A DNA stretch of 64,000 bases from Paratrimastix pyriformis (Eukaryota > Preaxostyla > Paratrimastigidae). The notes under the pieces are model-generated. The model saw only the letters and a program-made list of their open reading frames with translations, searched no databases and was not told the DNA's origin. A program made the translations under genes and the position numbers. Position 1 is the stretch's first letter. The number at the start of each line of letters is the position of its first letter. Shown here piece by piece: positions 6,501 through 19,240 of the stretch. The DNA is taken from assembly GCA_027972325.1 (NCBI GenBank), contig JAPMOS010000080.1, positions 62,001 through 126,000 of the forward strand, written 5' to 3'.

Positions 6501-9500
6501 TCGGAAGGCTGTTGCAGAAGAGGAGGCCCGGAAGGCAGAGGCCGCGGCTGCGGAGCAGGAGGCCCGTCGCAAGGCCGAAGCGGAGGCCCGCCGCAAGGCC
6601 GAGGTGGCCCGCCGGAAGGCCGCTGCAGAAGCGGAGGCCCGACGCAAGGCGGCAGCGGAAGCGGAAGCGGAAGCGGAAGCGGAAGCGGAAGCGGAAGCGG
6701 AAGCGGAAGCGGAAGCGGATCGTCAGGTCGGGATGGCATGCCCTCCATCCCTCCATCATCCCTCTGCCCGCAGCTCAGCTGGCAGCCGTGGACGCCGACC
6801 GCCGCCCCGCCGCCCCCCGCTGCGCCTCCTTCCCCGCTCATGGCTCAGCCCCCTCCCCTCCCCTCCCCTCCCTCCCTCCTCCCCTCCCCTCCCCCTCCCC
6901 TCCCCTCCCCTCCCCTCCCCTCCCCTCCCTCCCCCATCCATCCCTCCCTCCCTCCCTCCCTCCCTCCCTCCCTCCCTCCTCCCTCCTCCCTCCCTCCCTC
7001 TCACTTTCACACAAACACTCTCTCTCTTTCTCCCCCTCTCCCTCCGCGGCGGCCGCATTTGTGGTGTGGCCGTTGGGGTGGCCGCTGCGCCCGGCTCAGG
7101 TGGCCGCCGTCCTCGCTGAGGCCAACAGATGCACAAGCGCCGGCTCCTCCGTCTGTTTCGCGCCTGCCCTCGCTCGCACCCTCCCCGCTGCCTCACTCCA
7201 GCCTCCTGTGCCCAGCCCCCTCCCCCCCCCCCCCCCCCCCCCCCCCCCCCTCTCCCATCCCTTGCCCATCACCAGCACCCCATCCCGCGGCTCTTTGCTC
7301 TGGTCTCCATCCGCAGCTCGACCTCCGTTGGCGGGGCCTGACCGATCGCTGTGCCGTGGCGCTGGCCGGCTGGCTGGCCACCAACCGGACGGTCACCTGG
7401 GTCTGTGGCTGCCCGCCTCCATGGAGCCGCCGGAGGGCAGCCAGCCAAGGAGCACCATCGCGGGGCGAATGATGCTCTGTACAGAGGAGGACACGGCAGG
7501 GGCGGGCGGCAGGGGCAGGGGCAGCATCGAGGGCAGCAGAGGCATCTGCCACCAGCCAGCAGGTGAGCCCCATGCACCCCCCGTTGACCTTCCGCCTTTC
7601 CTTCTGCCTGCTGCCCCAGCCCCCCCCCCCCCCCCCCCCATGACCTCCCATGACCTCCCATGCCACACCCAGCAGCAGCATGCGCTTCCACCTGCTCCCC
7701 TTCCCATCTCCGGCTTCATCCACCACCCCCACCCACCCACTTTCGCCCGTCAATAAGATGATTCCTCATTCCCCCCACCACGCCACTCGACCCCAGCTTC
7801 TGATCCACTTCCGCATCAGCCGCCCTCGTTCCTGTTTGATCGCGATGATGCCGATGCATCTCCCTGCTCCTCCTCGTCTTCCTCCATTGTGCTCTTCGGC
7901 ACTGCCTTCTCGCCGCCCTTCCTGGCACGCCCCGCTCTTTCTGGCCCACCGCCCTGCTCCACTCTTCCTCTTGTGATCCTCTTCTGACATCCGCTCGCCC
8001 GTTCTCTTCGCCTCCACCACCTCACCAAGCATTTCTCTCGTCTTGTCTTGATGGGCGTGTTGGTCGACCAAAAAATGATGGGATGCTGGAAATAATTATG
8101 GGATGCTGGACAGATTATGGGAGGCGGGGGAAAAAAATTATGGGATGCTGGAAATATTTTGGGATGCTGGATAAAACAACAGGCTGATGATTGGATGATG
8201 GGATTGGATGGCTGGATGATGGTGATGGTGATGACTGGCTGATGAGGACTCGCGTTTTGTGGTTCCCTCCCTGGCTCTTCCTTCTTTGCCGCCAGAGATG
8301 CCAGGCGAGACTCTTTCCAGATTTCCCTGTGAGCAGCCATGCTCTCGAGAGAATTGTCGTCTTCCTTCTTTGCCCTCACACATCGTTTGCCTGATCTGAC
8401 TGAGACATTCACTCACGGGCATTCTTTCTGGTCTTCCTGTTGTCTTCCTGGATCGTCTCCCTTCCTCCTCGCCGCCCTCTCCCCCGCGGCGACCGCGATG
8501 CTCATCGGCCACCACCCATTCGATGCTGCTGCCGGATGGGATGATGCCGGCGGCGGTGACGATGCCCCGATGCTGGTGGTGGTCCTGCCGGCCCGCCCAC
8601 CCGCCCACCCGCCCGCCGGTGGTGGTGGTGGTGGTGGTGGCGCTGACCCATCATCATCATCATCATCAACGCAGCTCTACCTCTACCAGAACCAGATTGG
8701 CGACGAGGGGGCGCGTGCCCTCGCGGCCGCCCTGCCCCAGAACAGCACCCTCACTCATGTCTGCATATGTGCTCATCGGCATGGCCATCGTCGCTGGCCC
8801 CCCAACCCCGCCCTGTTCGCGTCAGCTTCCATGCGGGCGAGCGGCGCCCATGATCCCCCCACCCCCCCCCCCCCCCCCCTTCCCCCCCCCTTGTTTCTGG
8901 TTTTTGGGAGGATGGGGTGGGATATGGGTGGGAACGGAACAGGAAGGGAATCCGAAGACAGCCATCACATCACACACCCCAAACCAACCCCACCCACACA
9001 GCCCACGCCCCCCTCCCCATAAAACGGCCTCGGCCGGCGGCGTGCGCCCCCTCAACATGATTCTGACCCCACCACTCCACTCCACTCCACTCCACTCCAC
9101 GCCACTCCACTCCAGCTTCTGATCCACTTTCCCATCAACCAGCCCCTGGTTCTTGTCTGATGCCGATGCATCCATCTCCCCTCCTCGCCTTCCTCCTCCA
9201 TTGTGCTCTTCGGCACTGCCTTCGTCTCGATGGGCGAAGGTCGTGTGTTGGGTGCGGGTCGATATGGTCAGTCAGCGACCAGGAAATTATGGGATGCCGG
9301 GGAAAAAATAATAACTCGATGGGACAGCATATGGTCAGTCAGCGACCAGGAAATTATGGGATGCCGGGAAAAAATAATAACTCGATGGGACAGCATATGG
9401 TCAGTCAGCGACCAGGAAATTATGGGATGCCGGGAAAAAAAAACCTCCTCGATGGGACAGCACAAAATATTCTGGGATGCCGGGAAAAAAATAGATGATG

Positions 9501-18500: not shown

Positions 18501-19240
18501 CCCCCCGCCCGCCCGCTGGTGGTGGTGGTGGTGGCGCTGACCCATCGTCATCATCATCAACGCAGCTCTGGCTCCAGGAGAACCAGATTGGCGACGAGGG
18601 GGCGCGTGCCCTCGCGGCCGCCTTGCCCCAGAACAGCACCCTCCAAACGGTCTGCATATGTGCTCATCGGCATGGCCATCGTCGCTGGCCCCCCAACCCC
18701 GCCCTGTTCGCGTCGGCTTCCATGCGGGCGAGCGGCGCCCGTGATCCCCCCCCCTCCCCCACCTTCGATCTCATCTGTGGTCCGACATCAGTTCCTGGCT
18801 GGTGGGTCCCGAAAGGTGATGCGATGTCCCATCGTGTGTCCCACATCAATGCCCTCCATGCTGCTGCGCCCCCGCCCGCCCGTTCGCATGCCCCTCCCGC
18901 CCGCCCGCCCCTTCGGGGATGATGAGGGTGGTGATTCGCGGGGTGGGGTGGGGTGGGAGCGGTGGGGCGTGTGACTCCATCCATCCTGTGTGCCCATCTG
19001 CTCATCGGACCCTCCCCTCCGCTCCTACCTGGGCTGGAGAGGGGCTGGTTGCGCGGGGTGGTGGGTGCGGTGGGCCTGTGCGCTCCCCTGTGTGCCCATG
19101 AGCTCATCGGACCCTCCCCTCCGCTGCATCCCCCCACCCACCCATCCGCCCAGCTGTACCTACCCCGCGGCGTCCTTGGGCCCCAGGAGCAGCAGGCCCT
19201 CAACCAACGCTGCGGGGGCCGACTCAATTTCGATTATTGA
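2306..19240 (+). CDS. RING-TRAF zinc finger-coiled coil-LRR protein (giant split gene)
   Basis: Exon 1 (2306-2471) and exon 2 (2537-2612) join inside a RING finger: CPVC, then QCGHNVCRRC, then CPTPGCG. Exon 3 (2724-3512) has a Pro/Ala-rich linker and TRAF-type C/H fingers (RCPQCGRAVARAERAAH and GCGQRVPLADMEEHC). Exon 4 (5421-6179) completes the last finger and carries Gln/Thr/Arg-rich heptads; exon 5 (6340-6726) is a charged Ala/Glu/Arg helix. From 7317, ten 84-nt phase-0 exons each encode one 28-residue RI/NLRC3-type LRR, and 19154-19240 encodes a 28-residue cap and stop. The reading frame slips by one near 3430, either a true lesion or an assembly error. Exons between 6727 and 7316 are unresolved. 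RING-TRAF proteins are usually E3 ligases or signalling adaptors; the LRR array suggests ligand recognition. Junction phases support one gene, but two (RING-CC and LRR) are possible. Confidence 0.8.
3590..5235. repeat. giant (ATC)n intronic microsatellite block
   Basis: Intron 3513-5420 is mostly (CAT/ATC)n broken by ATCCAA, CAC and CAG variants, with higher-order duplications (the block near 3721-3790 recurs near 3981-4050). Long poly-His, poly-Ser and poly-Ile frames are artefacts of the repeat. Confidence 0.95.
5421..6726 (+). other. coiled-coil / charged-helix exons
   Basis: The first part has 14-residue-like repeats around QTRQQAARTEQ, LDQTRQ and ETRHELAQTK. Exon 5 switches to Ala/Glu/Arg repeats (EEARRKAAEE) and ends in a perfect (GAAGCG)n tract coding (EA)n. 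Such charged runs favour a single-alpha-helix spacer. The intron 6180-6339 starts GTCCGC. Confidence 0.8.
6727..7316 (+). other. C/T-rich intronic stretch with unresolved short exon(s)
   Basis: Pyrimidine tracts (CCCTCCCT)n at about 6850-7010 and poly-C at 7217-7250. Possible small exon pieces (LAAVDADRRPA near 6779; VAAVLAEANR near 7100) lie after AG acceptors, but I could not fix their boundaries or phase. Confidence 0.4.
9272..9485. repeat. about 66-bp tandem repeat inside an LRR intron
   Basis: Three head-to-tail copies beginning GTCAGTCAGCGACCAGG and containing ATTATGGGATGCCGGG and AACTCGATGGGACAGC. Equivalent introns carry one to three copies of the same unit. Confidence 0.9.
14022..14199. 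repeat. (GAT)n microsatellite, about 59 units, uninterrupted
   Basis: A pure trinucleotide run in the intron between LRR exons 13282 and 14480. It replaces most of the conserved block present in sister introns and looks like a recent expansion. Confidence 0.95.
16736..16990. repeat. (GAT)n with TTG interruptions
   Basis: GAT runs broken by GATTGGATGATG units inside the intron between LRR exons 15787 and 17434. The flanking conserved segment CTCGCACTTTGTGGTTCCC occurs on both sides, so the insertion duplicated its border. Confidence 0.9.
18044..18181. repeat. (GAT)n microsatellite
   Basis: A trinucleotide run followed by GACTGGATGATGAT variants, in the intron before the LRR exon at 18566. 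Confidence 0.95.

Follow-up and report, generated by a model that had tools for sequence, protein, structure and literature searches.

Leucine-rich repeat exon arrays with five diversified codons in a RING and zinc-finger gene family of Paratrimastix pyriformis

The stretch of DNA analysed in this work, referred to as the window, comprises 64,000 nucleotides of Paratrimastix pyriformis (assembly GCA_027972325.1, contig JAPMOS010000080.1, abbreviated C475, positions 62001-126000; genome of 56.06 Mb in 495 contigs) and carries on its plus strand a gene with a long array of leucine-rich repeat (LRR) exons. Directly observed are the tandem array of almost identical 84-nt exons, a family of genes carrying such arrays, the focus of amino-acid change on five codons of the exon (codons 2, 4, 5, 27 and 28) and the reassortment of the two variable parts of the exon. 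We consider it probable that this is a RING/zinc-finger protein family with an LRR horseshoe encoded by phase-0 84-nt exons, shaped by duplication, by conversion-like exchange and by diversifying selection on the variable face of the horseshoe. Exon ends and splicing were inferred from AG/GT sites and reading frame, not from cDNA; since the gene is split by introns, the host should be a eukaryote. The LRR exons of the window gene are the following:

7317..7400, plus strand: first LRR exon, 84 nt, sequence unlike the array unit, codons 2, 4, 5 and 28 vary among genes
8675..8758, plus strand: array exon 1 (LYLYQ...TH)
10039..10122, plus strand: array exon 2 (LELEH...TH)
11340..11423, plus strand: array exon 3 (LRLDQ...TH)
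12761..12844, plus strand: array exon 4 (LWLNQ...EA)
13282..13365, plus strand: array exon 5 (LWLNQ...QG)
14480..14563, plus strand: array exon 6 (LGLVQ...QR)
15787..15870, plus strand: array exon 7 (LNLNQ...QG)
17434..17517, plus strand: array exon 8 (LYLGQ...RE)
18566..18649, plus strand: array exon 9 (LWLQE...QT)
19154..19240, plus strand: terminal LRR exon with stop (LYLPRGVLGPQEQQALNQRCGGRLNFDY, then stop), codons 2 and 4 vary between genes

A preliminary description of the window had located the ten 84-nt exons at exactly these places, and all ten are in phase 0 and in one frame, each with AG before and GTCTG after it. Its codon lists for positions 2, 4 and 27-28 agree letter for letter with ours, and the end it had given for the array, 19240, is the stop of the terminal exon. 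In the genome a 60-base core pattern, allowing up to 3 mismatches, occurs 68 times, and 0 times when the pattern is reversed. About 192 kb around the core matches was taken for comparison (one 84-nt match with a score of 18, which is a first exon, and one in-exon row were dropped). Of the 61 core matches on the contigs C475, C49, C213, C176 and C426, 60 are full-length exons flanked by AG and GT and with an uninterrupted frame, and variation was compared over these 60 array exons. They belong to 12 genes, arranged in clusters, on the five contigs, window gene included, each marked by its first LRR exon. As microsatellites upset the MAFFT alignment of the flanks, anchored and pairwise alignments were used instead.

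Variation is concentrated at five codons. Over the 60 exons, 11 different codons encoding 11 residues (aromatic in 29 of the 60) occur at codon 2, 11 encoding 10 residues at codon 4, 6 encoding 6 at codon 5, 10 encoding 7 at codon 27 and 13 encoding 12 at codon 28. The remaining codons are fixed or nearly so, the next most variable being codons 7 and 10 with the major codon in 53/60 each. Bases differing from the majority amount to 314/900 in the five variable codons versus 34/4140 in the other 23, a contrast for which neither chance nor sequencing error is a likely source. The description of an LRR array built by exon duplication, with extremely diversified residues of the xxLxLxx strand, is borne out. 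The strong variability claimed for codon 5 holds for the family and not for the window, where CAG is present in 7 of the nine array exons and CAC and GAG once each. Pairwise difference is 0.483 at the variable codons versus 0.0171 at core third positions, and 0.515 versus 0.0097 among the nine array exons of the window. In the introns, off-consensus bases number 65/5164 in the first 96 bases and 128/10287 in the upstream block (about 1.25%), so that comparison with paralogues and with the introns of each unit, as had been proposed, places the five codons far above both silent and intron levels. The near-zero intron divergence expected at the outset was overstated: 534/22467 aligned bases (2.4%) differ pairwise in the intron flanks of the nine window units, and many gaps due to repeat length are added to these.

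Older 84-nt LRR arrays built in the same way, their units more closely spaced and their silent divergence at an ordinary level, are present at C297:12001-18000 and C64:45001-49000 and offer a natural control; they were fetched in part (6 kb with 9 exons and 4 kb with 6 exons, respectively). Variable codons and core third positions differ by 0.57 and 0.116 in the C297 array and by 0.44 and 0.27 in the C64 array. The diversity of the variable codons is thus about equal regardless of silent age.

In the LRR fold the x positions of the xxLxLxx motif lie on the concave strand. By similarity of sequence, codons 2, 4, 5, 27 and 28 would correspond to these x positions, with the intron between codons 28 and 1 splitting the strand; the variable codons had been described as set exactly at the exon edges, and these edges are the place at which the strand is interrupted by the intron, the position of the fold itself resting on this similarity only. 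Strand positions vary also in the differently sequenced first LRR exon, where the 12 genes show 9 different codons encoding 9 residues at codon 28 and where AGT, AAT, CAT or CGT occupies codon 4 in 8 of the 9 in-frame copies, the residue shifting while the rare third base T stays constant. Regarding the exon edges, glutamine at codon 27 is always encoded by CAA (26/26) versus CAG in 88/95 cases in the polyketide-synthase frames of the window, and the final base of the array exon is only G or T.

Silent change was counted as pairs of exons sharing a residue and differing in its codon. At codons 2, 4 and 5 such pairs number 4/947 in the young arrays versus 13/45 in the 15 older exons, at codons 27-28 15/703 versus 5/33, and in the core 748/39538 versus 348/1907. 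In a minimum spanning tree of codons 2, 4 and 5, 0 of 24 one-step edges are silent versus 5.6 expected (P about 0.002; 0.0016); silent one-step pairs are present at codon 27 (three) and codon 28 (one). Upstream of the LRR part, a 237-nt zinc-finger block compared in 8 of 9 copies shows 34 differences in 28 comparisons, all 34 of them synonymous; the ninth copy (C213, 6690-6919), which is broken in two (residue identity 98% and 90%, respectively), was excluded. Since residue change is focused on the LRR face and silent change lags behind at codons 2, 4 and 5, we attribute the pattern to selection and not to a base-blind local mutator, and the data agree with diversifying selection acting very strongly on the strand presumed to bind.

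Codon-usage bias was considered as the sole cause of the missing silent variants. Five polyketide-synthase frames (1843 codons) have a GC3 of 0.909, and 0 codons ending in A or T are seen at positions 2, 4 and 5 versus about 18 of 180 expected from usage, a test that is weak for these positions alone, there being just 28 distinct codon states. Codons 27 and 28 show an excess of such codons (41/60 versus 4.8 expected, and 13 versus 6.0 expected, respectively) and codon 4 of the first exon keeps its T, and usage as the only cause was rejected on these grounds.

For the analysis of exchange between exons, codons 2, 4 and 5 were termed the head and codons 27-28 the tail, with a nearly invariant core of 63 bases between them. 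The head codons are mutually associated (z 5.2-5.5), as is codon 27 with codon 28 (z 10.5), and head and tail are almost independent (z -1.0 to 2.1), the 39 heads and 21 tails giving 58 distinct combinations in 60 exons. No association across the intron was found between a tail and the head of the next exon in 47 adjacent pairs. The near-free reassortment of heads and tails makes conversion-like exchange between exons likely. Of the template-driven conversion suggested in the preliminary description, the part in which units and genes exchange variants that already exist is supported, and the conversion itself is likely. Exons with the same head have closer upstream introns (0.0129 vs 0.0257, p 0.0005).

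Head and tail divergence was also binned by intron divergence for the 706 pairs with at least 600 aligned intron bases (1064 of the 1770 pairs were below this threshold and left out). Mean divergences of head and tail are 0 and 0.17 at 0.3% intron divergence (3 pairs), 0.33 and 0.41 at 0.7% (7 pairs), and 0.44 and 0.59 at 1.3% (43 pairs), the full level being reached by about there. Single pairs show how sharp the patches are. The exons C475+70675 and C49+38197 differ in all six bases of codons 27-28 and are identical in the rest of the exon, with one substitution and a few gaps in 375 aligned bases of the downstream intron. C475+76480 and C49+39393 show six base differences, all within codons 2-7, and, gaps aside, zero substitutions in 486 upstream bases and in the first 165 bases of the intron that follows. 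Tract lengths are unreadable because the flanks of donor and recipient are alike; such sharp patches require no more than ordinary conversion over short tracts or a double exchange.

The 28-residue repeats encoded by the array are predicted to be LRRs of the ribonuclease-inhibitor type (LxLxxN): the LRR part of the protein joined from inferred exons matches Pfam LRR_6 at 1.3e-64 in 8 stretches and the ribonuclease inhibitor 3tsr at 4e-42. As all 60 array exons are 84 nt long, in phase 0 and bounded by AG/GT, exon skipping would preserve the frame. Upstream of the LRR exons the window gene carries the following parts:

2306..2471, plus strand: first coding exon, first half of a C3HC4 RING, inferred start ATG 2306
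2537..2612, plus strand: second RING exon (GHNVCRRC...CPTPGC), ends inferred
3184..3429, plus strand: Cys/His-rich zinc fingers, TRAF-type-like (Pfam)
5427..6179, plus strand: heptad-rich, coiled-coil-like region (QTRQQ... repeats) preceded by a short Cys-containing lead-in, occurs in paralogues
6337..6720, plus strand: Ala/Glu/Arg-rich helix-like stretch with tandem repeats, C49 paralogue identical over the first 58 residues

The RING peptide joined from the two inferred exons scores 38.1 bits with PF15227 (cut-off 30), and on this C3HC4 match above the curated cut-off the product is predicted to be a RING finger protein. The zinc-finger exon matches CEP104_ZnF (29.9 bits, cut-off 27.4) and, below the cut-off of 27, zf-TRAF (24.8 bits). 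The coiled coil was judged by eye and not computed, and a Pfam scan of 5427..6179 gave zero families over the cut-off. No match to a MATH/TRAF-C domain was found in the joined LRR protein or in 8 upstream frames, the C terminus being LRR. Pfam scans of the window gene gave zero matches to a NACHT or NB-ARC domain, the upstream stretches having been scanned unspliced, and no Roc or COR match in 8 unspliced plus-strand stretches at 1600-7753, with 3591-5249 outside the scan and a split domain able to escape it. Very long ATC/GAT trinucleotide tracts are found between the finger and coiled-coil parts (window 3590-5229, about 1.6 kb) and elsewhere.

RING, fingers and coiled-coil part are all present upstream in 7 of the 12 genes. 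Four genes have the front end in parts: the gene near 41967 on C475 is without RING, no coiled coil is listed for that near 68531 on C49, RING only is found near 22015 on C49 and coiled coil only near 33230 on C176. The C426 gene starts at the contig edge. Genes of which both ends are seen have 2 to 13 array exons. Ten terminal exons are present on the five contigs, and the terminal exon of the window has 15 matches in the genome (E <= 0.001). The first LRR exons at C475:30621(-), 41985(-) and 49762(+), whose starts were set by eye, have an apparent indel and may represent pseudogenes or homopolymer errors.

Several observations weigh against the explanation preferred here. Exons with the same head lie also on closer downstream introns (p 0.006), and exons with the same tail have no closer downstream introns (p 0.30) and just weakly closer upstream ones (p 0.043), a pattern of intron sharing that is not predicted by a simple model of unit duplication. 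Silent differences at codons 27-28 are as frequent as in the core. Codon 27 of the first LRR exon is conserved in 11/12 copies, and codons 21, 22 and 25 of the terminal exon are as variable as its codon 2. A complete front end is found in just the 7 genes mentioned, and 3 of the 12 first LRR exons have an apparent frame-shifting indel. The tests count units as independent despite their common descent, and selection is inferred from paralogues by counting and not by codon-model likelihood. Identity of codons could also result from a single origin of each residue state that was then spread by conversion.

This last point belongs equally to a history in which the variable codons represent ancient alleles, differences everywhere else having been erased by concerted evolution, because one origin per residue state followed by conversion would likewise leave no silent variants. 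Such a history is further favoured by the equal diversity of variable codons in young and old arrays, by multi-base differences that adjoin unchanged sequence, and by heads recurring on unlike introns (upstream divergence of 3.7% for LWLQE and 2.8-3.7% for LYLYQ). Ancient variants should, however, show silent differences as the older arrays do, and these are nearly missing at codons 2, 4 and 5, where the third base is restricted to C or G and is in most cases constant at a given position; we regard old diversity as rather unlikely. An artefact of a collapsed repeat, arising either in assembly (the possible refutation named in the preliminary description) or in sequencing, is extremely improbable. 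Units are nearly identical, some contigs are short (C213 33.8 kb, C176 40.2 kb, C426 12.4 kb) and the first exons with apparent indels would be in line with it, but errors would not pile about 28-fold into five codons without creating stops or, within codons 2, 4 and 5, silent changes, and each unit has its own repeat-length gaps.

A focused mutator, that is a targeted, deaminase- or retroelement-like hypermutation editing the variable codons, had also been put forward. It would agree with the full variable-codon diversity attained by about 1.3% intron divergence, with units that differ in up to 3/3 bases of one codon and have 2 substitutions in 558 upstream bases, and with the many NNC/NNG codons that look like adenine-template codons. 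Base-blind hypermutation was set aside since silent variants are almost missing at codons 2, 4 and 5 (in 60 exons the serine pair AGC/TCC is the exception), and on the same silent counts a focused mutator is not supported. Adenine-directed, retroelement-like mutagenesis is disfavoured by the adenines of codons 8, 11, 22, 23 and 24, which are invariant in the 60 exons, those of codons 7 and 10 being changed in 4 and 7 exons, respectively. With these invariant adenines and with one-step changes that include C/G swaps at the third base, the target pattern of diversity-generating retroelements, in which only template adenines give rise to variation and all adenines are exposed to it, was not found in the array exons; a reverse transcriptase was not searched for. 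Strand positions that vary in the unlike first and last LRR exons also speak against a mutator, which we hold to be very improbable.

Under the explanation by duplication, exchange and selection, duplication of exon-plus-intron units together with unequal exchange would set the repeat number, while conversion-like exchange, probably in short tracts, would homogenise core and introns and reshuffle heads and tails between units and genes. Strong diversifying selection would favour new residues at positions expected to face the concave side. The exons would be spliced into one protein, whose variable face may bind a target and whose RING, as part of a putative ligase, may mark the target with ubiquitin. 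The likely product is a putative family of RING-type ligases with differing target specificities, for which, by analogy with other systems, a role in pathogen or non-self recognition may be envisaged.

The remaining part of the window contains genes of other types. A GnT-I (N-acetylglucosaminyltransferase I) gene lies just downstream of the array gene on the plus strand at about 20476-21720 (PF03071, 106.7 bits, peptide joined by eye). On the minus strand a polyketide-synthase-like region at 45747-54844 shows Pfam matches for ketoacyl synthase, acyl transferase, methyltransferase and zinc-dehydrogenase (enoyl-reductase-like) in four separate frames. Also on the minus strand, a 428-residue open frame at 58473-59759 has KKSC[YF]EPC repeats followed by NGNNGH repeats and matches no Pfam family at E <= 1e-5. 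Comparison of the window with Rfam yielded 0 matches.

Lamprey variable lymphocyte receptors combine an LRR horseshoe and variable concave residues with a gene-conversion-like somatic assembly mediated by cytosine deaminases. They assemble somatically, whereas the window family is known from one genome sequence, without evidence of somatic change. Close analogues are the brown-algal ROCO genes, the Tetrahymena 90-bp LRR genes and the fungal NWD genes; the window family works alike and differs from ROCO and Tetrahymena in the exon-size and domain features compared. The ROCO genes have 72-nt phase-2 LRR exons, a 23-residue motif and a ROC-COR GTPase, with positive selection at sites 14, 16, 18 and 19 of the motif, exon shuffling, and reported splice variants with different exon sets (PMC11378527). 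Common to both are one exon per LRR, tandem exons and exon shuffling, and by spacing the four selected ROCO sites would correspond, by our own reckoning, to codons 28, 2, 4 and 5. Diversifying selection on concave-face sites is found here as well by counting, the concave placement being predicted. Differing from ROCO, the present exons are of 84 nt in phase 0, the LRR is of 28 residues and ribonuclease-inhibitor type, and RING and zinc fingers take the place of the GTPase.

In Tetrahymena, LRR genes with 90-bp phase-2 exons number in the thousands, and mostly purifying Ka/Ks is reported; recent tandem LRR exons of fixed length, characteristic intron lengths, paralogue recombination and clonal expansions constitute the likeness (PMC6564038). 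In contrast, the exons described here are of 84 nt in phase 0 and change extremely at five codons only. The fungal NWD/HNWD genes have near-identical repeats under concerted evolution with four positively selected sites per repeat, and share with the window family the shuffling within and between genes and the few hypervariable, positively selected sites of the binding face (PMC4986451; PMC12222747). The high internal conservation of the NWD type is shared as a mode of evolution and does not make the window family a member of that group: those genes carry WD40, ANK or TPR repeats with NACHT or NB-ARC, and an intron-separated layout of one exon per repeat is not described in the accessible parts of these papers. 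In the open-access literature searched by title and start of abstract, which leaves most subscription journals uncovered, no design joining LRR exon arrays or tandem exons to RING/TRAF parts was found.

The family appears to be another case of a one-exon-per-LRR array beside those of brown algae and Tetrahymena, here with RING and zinc fingers at the front in place of a GTPase or NLR core, and with diversified strand positions that are seemingly the same as in brown algae. With silent and intron sites at about 1-2% versus saturated binding-face codons, it provides a clean natural system for the diversification of a recognition surface, in which it can be asked whether selection alone, conversion or some programmed process drives such diversification. 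That heads and tails are swapped by a programmed, template-driven process in short tracts, possibly somatic or clonal, so that one genome would continuously yield new target-binding ubiquitin ligases, we consider very unlikely; if true, programmed swapping would constitute an adaptive-like recognition repertoire outside vertebrates.

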